From an uncultured Granulosicoccaceae bacterium (GTDB lineage: Bacteria > Pseudomonadota > Gammaproteobacteria > Granulosicoccales > Granulosicoccaceae), in assembly GCA_937922675.1 (NCBI GenBank), contig CALAJN010000001.1, positions 1-64,000 of the forward strand: a stretch of DNA of 64,000 bases, given 5' to 3'. A program made the translations under genes and the position numbers. Shown here in pieces: positions 42,107-47,573 of this stretch (the stretch's first letter is position 1; every line of letters starts with the position of its first letter). The notes beneath the pieces were generated by a model that did no database searches, was not told the origin of the DNA, and worked only from the letters and a program-made list of their open reading frames with translations.

Positions 42107-42750
42107 CTACGCCAGCGACTTTGTCAGTAGCGCTTTCCAGCGCTGGTTATCGATGGCAAACACAACTCGTGCATTGGGCTCCTGTTGGCTGGTACCCAGT
42201 TTGTCCACGAGGCTTTGACCGCGACCAGTCTCGTTACCACACACGATGTGCACAGCGTGTTCGCTGATATCAATGGCGATGGAAGGATCCAGTGCAACGG
42301 CCATGGCAACCGGATCCGCCAATGCCATGCCGGTTTGACCCTGAAGGGTCTGTGCCGCACGCAATGACGTCGCATTCGACTCGATAGCAATACGTGCGCG
42401 ATCAGTGCCCAAGGCGATGATGTCGCGGCGCTCATCTGTACTCAAGGCAGCCTCGCCACAGGAGTGTTCCCATCCGATCATCGTGATGGTCATACCTGAG
42501 TCGAATACGCGCGCTGCCGCTTCCGGATCAACCCAGAAGTTGTACTCAGCAGCTGGCGTCACGTTGCCGTGCGTGCATGCAGCTCCGCCCATGATCCAGC
42601 AATGCTTGATCCTTGAGGCAAGTTCCGGATCTACACTGAGCGCGGTGGCGATATTGGTGAGTGGCCCGAGCGTTACCAGCTCAAGTTGCCCATCATCAGC
42701 GCTACCGCATCATCAGAAGCGGTATCAGTATCGATCAGGAATCTGCGCAT
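42107..42750 (-). pseudogene. Nucleoside hydrolase, broken by internal deletion and frameshift
   Basis: A start at 42750 encodes RRFLIDTDTASDDAVALMM, the calcium-binding N-terminus of inosine-uridine nucleoside hydrolases. About 60 bases later, in a different frame, the sequence continues as ELVTLGPLTNIATAL, then CWIMGGAACTHGNVTPAAEYNFW and on to the normal C-terminal region, ending at 42107. Roughly 70 residues between the two parts are missing and the frames do not match. The longest intact frame (from 42592) lacks the metal-binding N-terminus. It should be inactive. It lies between a convergent glycosyltransferase gene and the cysNC end. Confidence 0.82.
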
Positions 42751-42794
42751 GAAGTCCTGCGGGTCAAAGAGGGTGACCCGCAGAACCTTACCGC

Positions 42795-44762
42795 TTATTC
42801 GCTCGCCGCGAGCGCCTCGAGCATACCGGCCTTGCGCAGTTCGGAGACGATGCGCTCGGCGGCCTGTTCAGCACTCAACGCGCCGGTGTCGACAAGAATT
42901 TCCGGTGATTCAGGCGCCTCATAAGGCGAATCAATACCCGTGAAGTTCTTCAATTCTCCACGACGCGCCTTCTTGTAGAGACCCTTGGGGTCTCTCTCCT
43001 CGGCAACGCTGAGTGGTGTCTCCACAAATGTCTCTATGAATTCACCTTCAGCGACCAGTGAACGCGCAAGGGCACGTTCGGAGCGAAAGGGTGAGATGAA
43101 CGCGGTCAACACGATCAGGCCAGAATCAGCCATGAGGCTCGCCACTTCACCAATACGGCGAATGTTTTCGACGCGGTCAGCATCAGTAAAGCCGAGGTCC
43201 TTGTTCAGACCATGGCGTACATTGTCACCATCGAGCAGATAAGTGTGGTGACCAAGTGCGGCGAGCTTCTTCTCAACAATATTGGCGATAGTCGATTTCC
43301 CCGAGCCAGAAAGACCTGTGAACCACACAACACAGGGCTTCTGCCCTTTCATCGTGGCGCGTGCAGTCTTGTCCACATCGACTGCCTGCATGTGAATGTT
43401 GTCTGCTCGACGAAGTGCAAAGCGCAACATGCCAGCGCCGACTGTGGCATTGGTAATGCGGTCGATGAGGATGAAGCCACCGAGACCCTTGTTGTCGGTA
43501 TAAGCCTCAAACGGGATTACGCGATCGGTCTTCAGGTTGCAGATGCCGATTGAATTGAGCTCGAGTTGCCTGGCTGCTGTTTCCTCAAGGGTATTGACGT
43601 TGACCTCGTGCTTGATGGAGGTGACAGTAGCCGTGACGGTCTGGGTACCGAGCTTCAAAAGATAGGGGCGACCTGCCAGCATGGGGTCGTCGTGCATCCA
43701 CACAATCGTGGTCTCGAACTGGTCTGCAGAACCTGCGGGCTCTTCACTGGTGGAGATGACGTCTCCTCGTGAGGCATCGATTTCGTCTGCCAGAGTGAGC
43801 GTTACTGCATCTCCGGCACGCGCTTCATCCTTGTCGCCATCCATCGTGACAATGCGTGCGATCTTGCTGGTACGGCCTGAGGGCTGAACTCGGATATCGT
43901 CTCCTGGCTTTACGATGCCAGCGCTAACCGTGCCGGCGTAGCCGCGAAAGTCGAGATTGGGTCTGTTGACCCACTGCACCGGCATGCGAAAAGGCGAGTC
44001 ATTGGCTGCTTCATCATCAAGCTTCAATGTCTCGAGCAGGCCAAGCAAGGTAGTGCCTCGATACCAGGGCATGTTGGTCGAAGGAGCGGTGACATTATCG
44101 CCCTCCAGTGCCGACATCGGAATCGCTGTAATGCTCTCGATACCCAGACCATGAGCAAACTCGCTGTATTCCTCGTAGATCGCGTTGAACACAGACTCAT
44201 CCCAGCGCATCAGGTCCATCTTGTTGACCGCGAGGACCACATGACGAATTCCCAACAGCGAGACTAGATAACTGTGACGCCGTGTCTGGGTGAGAAGACC
44301 CGCACGTGCATCACACAGGATGACTGCTGCATCGGCGCTTGAGGCACCTGTGACCATGTTGCGGGTGTACTGCTCATGTCCGGGCGTATCCGCGACGATG
44401 AACTTGCGTCTGTCGGTCGAGAAAAAGCGGTAGGCAACGTCGATGGTGATGCCTTGCTCACGCTCTGCAGACAAACCATCTACGAGCAGAGCGAAGTCGA
44501 TATTGCTGCCCTGAGTACCAAACTTCTTGGATTCTGCAGCGACTGTTTCAAGCTGGTCTTCGAACAGAACCTTGGACTCATACAGCAGGCGTCCAATGAG
44601 CGTGCTCTTGCCGTCATCCACGCTGCCGCAGGTGATGAAACGCAACAGGCTCTTGTGTTCGTGACGCTCGAGATAGGCGTTGATGTCGCCTGCAATCAGG
44701 CGATCTGATTCGTCCTGCATACCCGCTGTTTGCAGGCCCGTGTCTTTGATATTGGCGCTCAT
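42795..44762 (-). CDS. cysNC: Bifunctional sulfate adenylyltransferase subunit 1 / APS kinase
   Basis: This 655-residue fusion contains two enzymes. The N-terminal GTPase (CysN, about residues 35-455) has the G1 motif [28 protein letters not shown], and NKMDLM. The C-terminal APS kinase (CysC, from about residue 460) has [33 protein letters not shown] and the [13 protein letters not shown] segment. CysN couples GTP hydrolysis to APS formation by CysD, and CysC makes PAPS from APS. It overlaps the cysD stop by one base. The fusion is common in Proteobacteria. Confidence 0.97.
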
Positions 44763-45958
44763 CAGAAGTAACCCTCTTGCTTTTTCTTTTCCATCGACGC
44801 CGCTGCGTCATGATCGATCATTCGGCCCTGGCGCTCGCTGCTGCGAGCCAGGAGCATTTCCTGGATGATTTCCGGCAGAGTGGTAGCCGTTGAATCAACC
44901 GCGCCAGTCAGCGGGTAACAACCCAGGGTGCGAAAACGCACGCTTCGCATTTCAGGTACTTCACCGGGGTTCAGTGGCATGCGGTCGTCGTCGACCATGA
45001 TCATTGCGCCGTCGCGATGCACGATCGGACGCTGTGCCGCGTAGTACAAGGGAACGATCGGGATGTTCTCGCGATGGATGTACTGCCAGATGTCGAGCTC
45101 GGTCCAGTTCGAGAGCGGAAACACACGAATGGACTCATCGCGGCGTTTGCGCGCGTTGTACAGGTTCCAGAGCTCAGGGCGCTGTGCCTTGGGCTCCCAA
45201 CGGTGTTCGGCAGAACGGAAGCTGAATACGCGCTCCTTGGCGCGTGACTTTTCCTCATCACGTCGAGCGCCGCCAAAGGCGATGTCGAACTTGTGTTCGT
45301 TGAGTGCTTGTTTGAGACCCTCGGTCTTCATGATGTCGGTGTGCAGTGCCGAGCCGTGGGTGAAGGGATTGACGCCTTGGCGAAGACCTTCTGGGTTCAC
45401 GTGCCGAATCAGCTCCATCCCGTAATCGTCGACGATGGAGTCGCGAAACGCATACATCGCCTGGAACTTCCACGTGGTGTCCACATGCAGCAACGGAAAC
45501 GGCGGCGGCGCCGGATAGAATGCCTTGCGAGCGAGGTGCAGCATGACCGCGCTGTCCTTGCCCACCGAATACAACATGACCGGCTTGTCGGCCTCTGCCA
45601 CCACCTCGCGCATGATGTGCAGGCTCTCGGCCTCGAGGCGCTCAAGGTGGGTGCGACGCGCTGGGTCGATCGTGAACTCGGGCAACTCGTACTGCTGTTG
45701 TGCGGGAGCAATCTCGGGTGCTTCGGCCTGGTGCTGCCCAGCGTTGGCGGCGTCATCAGAGCCGGGGCTGCGGGGTCGCCCGCGGGGGCCAACCGGTACT
45801 GCCTCCCAGCCGCCCTCGCGGTAGGCCTTGGTGGCGGCAGTCACAGTCGGTGCACTGAGGCCAGTGCGCTCGGCAGTCTCTTTGACCGTGGTGCCGGCGA
45901 GGCGCAGCTCGACGGCCTGGCGACGCAATTGGTTGAGTGTTTCGACGGATTGGGACAC
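44762..45958 (-). CDS. cysD: Sulfate adenylyltransferase subunit 2 with N-terminal helix-turn-helix domain
   Basis: The C-terminal 300 residues are complete CysD, the ATP sulfurylase small subunit: [76 protein letters not shown] and the C-terminal KKKQEGYF. In front lies an HTH domain ([40 protein letters not shown]) followed by a PRGRPRSPG linker. That domain resembles the N-terminal HTH of IS630-like transposases and related proteins. The GTG at 45958 (398 residues, GGAA upstream) was chosen; a TTG at 46012 (416 residues) is open but has no ribosome binding site. It is the first gene of cysD-cysNC. An autoregulatory role is inference. Confidence 0.9.
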
Positions 45959-45980
45959 GGGATGTTCCGGTTTCTTGGCT

Positions 45981-46042
45981 AAAAAGTTTTTGTAGTATCG
46001 CTCATCTAACAAAAAAAGTTTATAACTTGTAAAAAACGTTTT
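45981..46042. promoter_or_regulatory. Three A-tract/T-tract sites upstream of cysD
   Basis: Three similar sites lie in the AT-rich cysD upstream region: AAAAAGTTTTT (45981-45991), AAAAAAAGTTTA (46011-46022) and AAAAAACGTTTT (46031-46042). Their centres are about 32 and 20 bases apart, close to three and two turns of the DNA helix. They could be operators for the HTH domain of CysD or for another regulator, or simply promoter A-tracts. No clear -35/-10 pair was resolved. Confidence 0.35.
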
Positions 46043-46202: not shown

Positions 46203-47573
46203 ATGACCCGAAAAGTATTCATCAAGACCCACGGCTGTCAGATGAACGAGTACGACTCGGCCAAGATGCTCGACGTCCTCGCCGACGCCGGGCCCGTCGA
46301 GTCAACCAAGGATCCGGCCGAGGCCGATATCCTGTTGCTCAACACCTGTTCGATCCGGGAGAAGGCGCAGGAGAAGGTGTTCTCGGAGCTTGGCCGATGG
46401 AGGCCGCTGAAAGAGGCTCGCGAAGCTGCCGGTGGCAAGCCCGTGGTTATCGGGGTAGGTGGTTGTGTGGCCAGTCAGGAAGGCGAGGCGATTCAACAGC
46501 GCGCGCCGTTCGTTGATGTCGTGTTTGGACCGCAAACCCTGCATCGCCTGCCAGAGCTGGTGTCTCAGACCGAGGCAGCCGGGGCTCCGGTCGTTGACAT
46601 CAGTTTTCCAGAAATCGAGAAGTTTGATCGCTTGCCCGAGCCTCGCTCCGAAGGGCCAGTGGCGTTTGTTTCCATTATCGAGGGTTGCAGCAAGTACTGC
46701 AGTTTTTGCGTCGTCCCCTACACCCGAGGCGAGGAGCTCAGCCGGCCACTCGATGATGTGCTTGCAGAGTGCATGAGTCTGGCGGAACAGGGCGTGCGTG
46801 AAATACATTTACTCGGGCAAAACGTTAATGCCTACCGTGGCCCGACTGGCGAGGAGGGTGAGGTGGCAGATCTTGCCTTCTTGATTCGTTGCGTCGCTGC
46901 TATCGACGGCGTCGACCGCATTCGCTACACCACATCGCATCCTGTGGAGTTCAGTGATGCCTTGATTGAAGCCCATCGTGATGTACCAGAACTTGTGAGC
47001 TTTCTGCATCTGCCAGTGCAAAGTGGCTCGGATCGGATACTGGCCGCGATGAAGCGTGGCCACACCGCGATTGAGTACAAGGCCAAGATTCGTAAATTGA
47101 TGGCCGCTGACCCCAGGCTGACCTTGTCGTCTGACTTCATTGTGGGTTTTCCAGGTGAAACCGACGCTGATTTTCAGGCCACCATGGACTTGATCGAGAC
47201 CGTCGGGTTTGATAACTCATTCAGCTTCATCTACAGTGCACGCCCCGGCACTCCAGCAGCTTCGCTGGCTGACGATACCGACATGTCAGTCAAGAAGGCG
47301 CGTCTTGCTCATCTGCAAGCAACGATTACACGACAGGCTGCTGCAATCAGTCAGGCGATGGTCGGCACGGTCGTACCTGTTCTGGTTGACCGCCCGTCAC
47401 GCAAGGACCCCGCACAAGTCAGCGGGCGCACAGAGAATAATCGCGTGGTGAACTTTACAGCTGATACCAGCCTGATCGGAAGTTTTGCCTCCGTCCGCAT
47501 CACCGAAGCCCTTCCGAATTCCCTGCGCGGTGAAATCGTCGATATAGAAGCTACCGCCGCCGCTGCATCGTGA
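46203..47573 (+). CDS. miaB: tRNA-2-methylthio-N6-dimethylallyladenosine synthase
   Basis: This 456-residue radical-SAM enzyme methylthiolates i6A37 in tRNA. The N-terminal MTTase domain has [13 protein letters not shown] and [14 protein letters not shown]; the radical-SAM cluster cysteines lie in [26 protein letters not shown] follows, and a C-terminal TRAM domain has [15 protein letters not shown] and [12 protein letters not shown]. It starts the conserved miaB-ybeZ-ybeY-corC-lnt run; its stop overlaps the next GTG by four bases. Confidence 0.98.

Follow-up and report, generated by a model that had tools for sequence, protein, structure and literature searches.

The cysD gene of the window, the 64,000-nucleotide stretch of Granulosicoccaceae DNA analyzed here, encodes an ATP sulfurylase small subunit (CysD) joined in one chain to an N-terminal helix-turn-helix (HTH), and this HTH-CysD fusion is real and conserved, as seen from a single open frame, homology, conservation, purifying selection and gene order. 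Sequence comparison and structure prediction indicate that the N-terminal module is derived from an IS630 transposase that has lost its catalytic residues. Our preferred reading, held with a little more belief than doubt, is that the captured and catalytically dead transposase would serve as a DNA-binding autoregulator of cysDNC, the fusion probably allowing the enzyme to bind DNA ahead of its own gene; this role, from DNA binding to sensing and regulation, is here deduced from sequence.

The fusion gene and its neighbors

The fusion is encoded on the minus strand in a single frame, 44762-46012, that is open over 416 amino acids in the ORF list of the window. The protein consists, in order, of the HTH, a PRGRP hook (which we take to be an AT-hook/GRPR-like motif), a linker and CysD, and the CysNC gene comes next (Table 1). 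Residues 123-416 of this frame scored 500.6 bits against the CysD model TIGR02039 (cut-off 396.6), the frame scored 542.2 bits against NF009214, also above cut-off, and the solved CysD 1zun_A aligned with residues 119-416 (E 7e-146); CysD is full-length, with the GKDS PP-loop present. With cysNC directly downstream, its start overlapping the cysD stop, CysD and CysNC of the window are predicted to act together as an ATP sulfurylase enzyme. Residues 30-72 matched Pfam HTH_28 (E 1.8e-7, above cut-off) and also HTH_23. An HTH fused in frame to a complete CysD ahead of cysNC, as the earlier note had described it, was thus borne out. The window gene gave the only CysD match in the 3.63 Mb host genome.

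Table 1. Features of the cysDNC region of the window
Feature	Position	Strand	Basis or remark
HTH-hook-CysD fusion gene	44762..45958	-	likely start GTG 45958, 398 aa; G003 coding similarity begins at the GTG
First HTH, IS630-type	45797..45925	-	Pfam HTH_28, residues 30-72 (frame numbered from TTG); three helices, mean pLDDT of 10-residue blocks 83-98
PRGRP motif (hook)	45773..45787	-	read from sequence; its G55 invariant in 33/33 long fusions
Linker	45659..45769	-	where long relatives carry second HTH and RNase H-like core; pLDDT mostly <50
CysD, ATP sulfurylase small subunit, GKDS loop	44765..45658	-	TIGR02039 500.6 bits; 1zun_A
CysNC (GTPase subunit and APS kinase)	42795..44762	-	Pfam GTP_EFTU, APS_kinase; start overlaps cysD stop
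MiaB-type radical SAM gene, divergent, common intergenic region	46203..47573	+	Pfam UPF0004, Radical_SAM, TRAM; no known tie to the fusion
Operator-like site 1, AAAACGTTTT	46033..46042	-	candidate; read from upstream sequence
Operator-like middle site, AAACTTTT	46014..46021	-	candidate; read from upstream sequence
Operator-like site 3, AAACTTTTTAG	45979..45989	-	candidate; pair with site 1 once in genome

The gene start had previously been placed at TTG 46012. A sister species (G003, locus L002) has the same layout with 90% identity, and its coding similarity to the window begins at GTG 45958 instead, so the window protein is most likely one of 398 amino acids starting at that codon; the 18 residues following the TTG found no support in this comparison. 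Between the two species dN/dS was 0.10 for the HTH and hook, 0.03 for CysD and 0.20 for the linker, at a dS of 1.9 that is near saturation. No in-frame ATG or GTG is present between the hook and CysD in the window, where the sole start codon is a TTG with no Shine-Dalgarno (SD) match; in G003 a TTG ahead of CysD is accompanied by GGAG.

Downstream of cysNC (42107-42795, minus strand) the window contains pieces of a nucleoside hydrolase in different frames with stops, likely representing a decayed gene; in locus L031 the gene at this place is intact and encodes 308 amino acids.

Distribution, selection and evolutionary stages

A survey of 36 Granulosicoccaceae genomes, the window's own included, identified the HTH in the same open frame as CysD in all 30 that bear CysD. 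Taken with the G003 layout, this rules out a chance fusion or misassembly, and where absence of the HTH from close relatives had been named beforehand as a refutation, conservation was found. The six genomes without CysD comprised one with the HTH alone, near a contig end (G005), and five with no HTH or CysD match, one of these, G031, matching the CysD part weakly (E 9.5e-4). The frame extends over 580-672 codons in 28 of the 30 fused genomes, that is, in all but the compact pair formed by the window and its sister G003. In all 25 long family fusions retrieved, the part that separates the first HTH from CysD contains another HTH region together with a degenerate RNase H-like core. The stretch from HTH to CysD core measures 270-347 residues in these loci compared with about 83-91 in G003 and the window, where only the first HTH and hook are kept, and the 25 family loci show 19 different HTH-to-CysD lengths, every one in frame.

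A scan of a genome collection, from which the best 80 of 593 loci were taken, yielded 13 further fused loci among those 80, from Neptuniibacter, Methyloversatilis (2), a Rhodocyclaceae MAG, Marinobacterium (2), Marinimicrobium, Amphritea (2), Pseudomonas (3) and Comamonas. Two more of the 80 (L031 and L032) were repeats of family genomes, and a Ramlibacter locus truncated at a contig end (L054) gave a partial match. The fused form was also present in G192 and G395. Four genomes carry the module as a gene of its own immediately ahead of cysD (Marinomonas L037, together with G397, G474 and G776, which share one family). When 369 genomes of the class were screened, 25 had a match to the N-terminal part at E 1e-6 and at least six of these matches were at cysD (G000, G006, G014, G192, G395, G397); of the other 19, three (L116, L117, L118) were read and are true transposases, the rest being judged by frame length. 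A census of the phylum, which yields no frequency, produced matches in 286 of 398 genomes; 16 CysD loci were opened among the matches listed, and in two of these the module was a separate gene (G474 and G776, G397 having come from the class census). The architecture given in the earlier note was therefore confirmed as far as the fusion itself is concerned, whereas the larger form with its second HTH and dead transposase core, the separate-gene form and the occurrence in other families had been overlooked. Many CysD proteins lack the module, which makes it dispensable for catalysis.

Other N-terminal extensions of CysD were also observed. L028 and L099 carry a different long one (hhalign against the module: probability 40%, E 2.9e-4), which may be one more relative of the module in degenerate form, and a 496-codon frame in G095 (L206) matches this type of extension. 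In Parvularculaceae L078 and L088 a short in-frame extension ahead of CysD has the appearance of a small helical domain and gave no Pfam match.

For the long forms, dN/dS was determined in five pairs. Values were 0.03-0.25 for HTH1, 0.07-0.39 for the second HTH and 0.07-0.39 for the core, the highest HTH and core values coming from the Methyloversatilis pair, with 0.33-0.85 for the tail and 0.005-0.09 for CysD. The nearly neutral tail keeps its frame, which in these comparisons is best explained by selection for one chain. Outside the family, 11 of the 13 fusions retain a start codon for CysD itself, placed two codons ahead of the core and accompanied by an SD match of 4-6 bases, so that these 11 probably yield free CysD as well; the two Methyloversatilis fusions have an ATG at -12. 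Each of the 25 long family fusions has an ATG in frame no more than 45 codons from the core, with an SD match of mostly 0-4 bases.

The CysD frame from 106 of 110 loci was used for a quick tree, with 107 rows after three were added and two duplicates dropped. The window and G003 are sisters in this tree (support 99) and the compact pair is nested among the long fusions (support 80-85), which suggests that the compact form was probably derived by loss of the middle part. Module presence requires three changes on the tree; a single module clade was not rejected (p-AU 0.284), and module and CysD distances are correlated (Spearman 0.32, with 1 of 2000 permutations as high). The unfused CysD of L043, L058 and L060 lie amid fused ones, with the module undetected in the locus, and these appear to be module losses.

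Relationship of the module to IS630 transposases

The likeness of the HTH to that of IS630, remarked on earlier, extends to descent from a transposase: all eight long relatives tested matched the IS630 transposase model NF033545 (E 7e-10 to 9e-19, 38.9-68 bits), albeit none reached the curated cut-off of 100 bits, and the window form scored 25 bits. In tblastn searches, plasmid transposases annotated as IS630/IS1471 aligned over 75-90% of the N part with 27-33% identity, the best annotated transposase having an E of 3e-34, among the matches listed (20 of 87 records). Long and separate modules matched Pfam HTH_28/29/23, several of them also HTH_33 or HTH_32, and DDE_3 was weakly matched (E 0.005-0.007) in two of five long or separate modules scanned. 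A predicted model of the L055 N part (pLDDT 82) shows HTH domains and an RNase H-like core. Its best Foldseek match was the transposase TnsB (7svw_B, E 1.1e-4, TM 0.20), and the five matches with E 0.001 or better were TnsB and four reverse transcriptases, all at TM about 0.2; VIA-align gave integrase cores with Z up to 9.2 over residues 150-250, a modest value, and phmmer of the same N part against PDB sequences found no match at E 10.

With IS630-family transposases (NF033545; IS1471 on plasmids) the module shares HTH1, a GRPR-like hook, a second winged HTH and the start of the DDE domain. The full IS630 plan of two HTHs and an RNase H-like core is seen in the long forms only. The fusion differs from these transposases in scoring below the 100-bit cut-off and in being joined to, or lying beside, cysD, and the window form differs further in keeping HTH1, with the hook, alone. 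In an alignment of 33 long fusions with three true transposases, four fusions (L055, L046, L063, L009) kept the first catalytic D, the second had been lost in 33 of 33 and the third-residue motif NP(E/D)E was not recognizable, so that none of the 33 has the catalytic DDE/DDD triad of an IS630 transposase. All 11 N-part positions invariant in the long fusions (n=33) fall within HTH1 and the hook. No IS630 match over the cut-off was found in the host genome (20 contigs), which gives no support to a recent IS insertion.

Upstream sites and the proposed autoregulation

Three operator-like sites lie upstream of the window gene, and their sequences support them as candidate operators. The site strings, their pairing and their spacing were picked from the site itself after inspection and the loci are related, so that the following counts are a lead and not proof: the pair of sites 1 and 3 occurs once in the 3.63 Mb genome, upstream of the window gene (reversed control 0); AAAACGTTTT with up to one mismatch occurs five times in the 64 kb, two of them at this upstream region, and AAACTTTTTWR once, at the same region; and AAvGTTT is separated from AAACTTT by exactly 62 bp in six family loci (L003, L005, L007, L008, L010, L015), by 51 bp in the window and by 42 bp in G003, the pair being absent from the other 19 of 27 family loci. 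Spacing steps of 11 and 9 bp would place both sites on about the same helix face. These inverted sites are found upstream of the gene only and do not resemble the repeats flanking three true transposases; at these three transposases no link of the sites to the terminal repeats of true IS630 elements was found.

A shorter string, TTTAAYA, was one of 12 tried after the sequences had been read; with near-duplicate loci included, it was present within 150 bp upstream of 20 of 27 family and 11 of 17 other associated genes (shuffles 6.0 and 1.2), a total of 31 of 44 compared with 0 of 44 unfused cysD controls, which differ in composition from the associated genes (shuffle expectation 1.4). A cross-family motif, consensus ATGTTTAATA, was trained on 12 of the 17 other-family loci, five near-duplicates being left out, and exceeded the 95th percentile of its own shuffles in 41-44% of the 27 held-out family loci compared with 5-7% of the 44 controls. 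The upstream regions of the window and G003 scored low with this motif, which was learned from other families (1.9 and 3.9). The host genome also contains a match to NF009326 (PRK12681; 450.7 bits, cut-off 436), which we take to be CysB and which rules out the fusion as a replacement for a missing CysB.

We infer the following order of steps. An IS630-family transposase would have lost its catalytic residues, come to adjoin cysDNC directly upstream and then joined CysD in frame. Most relatives would have retained the whole binding part, comprising HTH, hook, second HTH and dead RNase H-like core, and the window lineage would have lost everything of the module except the first HTH and hook, its ATP sulfurylase apparently being produced only as a DNA-binding fusion. 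The paired, inverted AT-rich sites, some 20-85 bp ahead of the start, are where the HTH and hook may bind. Assembly of CysD with CysNC would gather the binding heads, so that promoter access would depend on how much of the complex there is or on its state, and plentiful ATP sulfurylase would hold the cysDNC operon down, both sign and signal of this control being presumed. Since a CysB match exists in the genome, control by the fusion would form a local layer beside CysB. A more specific version is tentative and receives somewhat less than even credence from us: in a bacterial parallel to the transposase captures of animals, an IS630 transposase would have been domesticated once as a private regulator of sulfate activation, and the fusion would yield free CysD beside the long form that binds DNA; in the window lineage the module would have been cut to the minimal HTH, making every ATP sulfurylase molecule a DNA-binding autoregulator that acts via inverted sites in helical phase (spacings of 62, 51 and 42 bp).

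Much of the same evidence bears on other explanations. The module might be translated and selected for another purpose, tethering ATP sulfurylase at other DNA sites or serving as an assembly domain, with cysDNC unregulated by it. We regard this as unlikely, though deserving of serious attention: the presence of PRK12681 and the poor fit of the cross-family motif to the window and G003 upstream regions agree with it, but HTH1 and the hook are the best-kept part and the sole part of the compact form, the module remains beside cysD in the four split genomes, and the upstream motifs are enriched. A second alternative would reduce the HTH stretch largely to a leader or upstream frame, with a minor long product and a working CysD that starts after the HTH (at the TTG in the window, at an SD-led ATG/GTG elsewhere). 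The start codons described above agree with it, both the SD-led ATG/GTG in 11 of the 13 fusions from outside the family and the in-frame ATG close to the core in all 25 long family fusions. Protein-level selection on HTH and core, length changes that are all in frame and a compact pair without ATG or GTG between hook and CysD make it improbable.

That the module is a decaying remnant of an IS630 insertion, joined to CysD by accident, is hardly credible. Its catalytic residues are gone and its core is divergent, as such a remnant would have it, but the low dN/dS contradicts decay, and the spread over families with one origin not rejected (p-AU 0.284), the correlated module and CysD distances (Spearman 0.32) and a genome without IS630 over the cut-off also count against it. 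It is very improbable that the fusion is an activator, or an APS/ATP sensor, instead of a repressor of excess.

Both halves of the proposed autoregulator are of known kinds, namely trigger enzymes and animal transposase-derived factors. NadR is presumably one trigger enzyme with a DNA-binding function. PutA and BirA are others, and both repress (PMC6978683); like the fusion they carry a DNA-binding part on a metabolic enzyme, within a single chain and at the operon in question, and the present case differs in that the binding part comes from a transposase, the enzyme is ATP sulfurylase and its regulatory role is presumed. Enzyme and nucleic-acid-binding part lie in one protein by domain match and prediction, and for direct metabolite-dependent control of expression there are candidate sites. 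Among transposon-derived proteins, SETMAR is an animal host-transposase fusion and TldR originates from TnpB. CSB-PGBD3 is another animal host-transposase fusion (PMC3459987), and transposon-derived transcription factors and host-transposase fusions are described in animals (PMC10027918; pogo, PMC7386202); in these cases a transposase part is joined to a host protein or made into a DNA-binding factor, as here, whereas those captures are eukaryotic and the present one is bacterial, of IS630 origin and pared down to a minimal HTH. PAPS reductase A of Tuber melanosporum is likewise a sulfur-assimilation enzyme with a transcription role, although this fungal enzyme acts by a C-terminal peptide and has no transposase origin (PMC4848566). 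TldR transcription factors are also bacterial regulators from a transposon protein, but are RNA-guided, non-DDE and not fused to an enzyme (PMC13418256). For prokaryotes, a review on the recruitment of mobile elements lists phage and antitoxin HTH regulators, and the term 'IS630' is absent from its text (PMC8987985). No description of an HTH-CysD fusion was recognized in the literature searched, mostly openly readable papers. Animals provide documented cases of regulators that arose by transposase capture; if our reading is correct, a bacterial example that is conserved in a core metabolic operon, and whose separate, fused and minimized stages are all living, would make the steps of domestication directly testable, and a sulfur-assimilation enzyme would join the trigger enzymes. 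For annotators, the extra N-terminal residues on such CysD proteins would then be residues under selection.

In some loci other than the window the divergent neighbor resembles a sulfur gene. In L055, L063 and L035 the divergent neighbor encodes an inositol-phosphatase family protein, which we assume to be CysQ-like, and in L033 and G397 it encodes a CitMHS/Na-sulfate-type transporter. A transporter-like gene divergent from the module or fusion together with a nearby inositol-phosphatase-like gene was observed in L033 and L142 by Pfam and in L037, L040 and L042 by resemblance of the translations, and these five loci apparently represent a compact sulfate-assimilation cluster.
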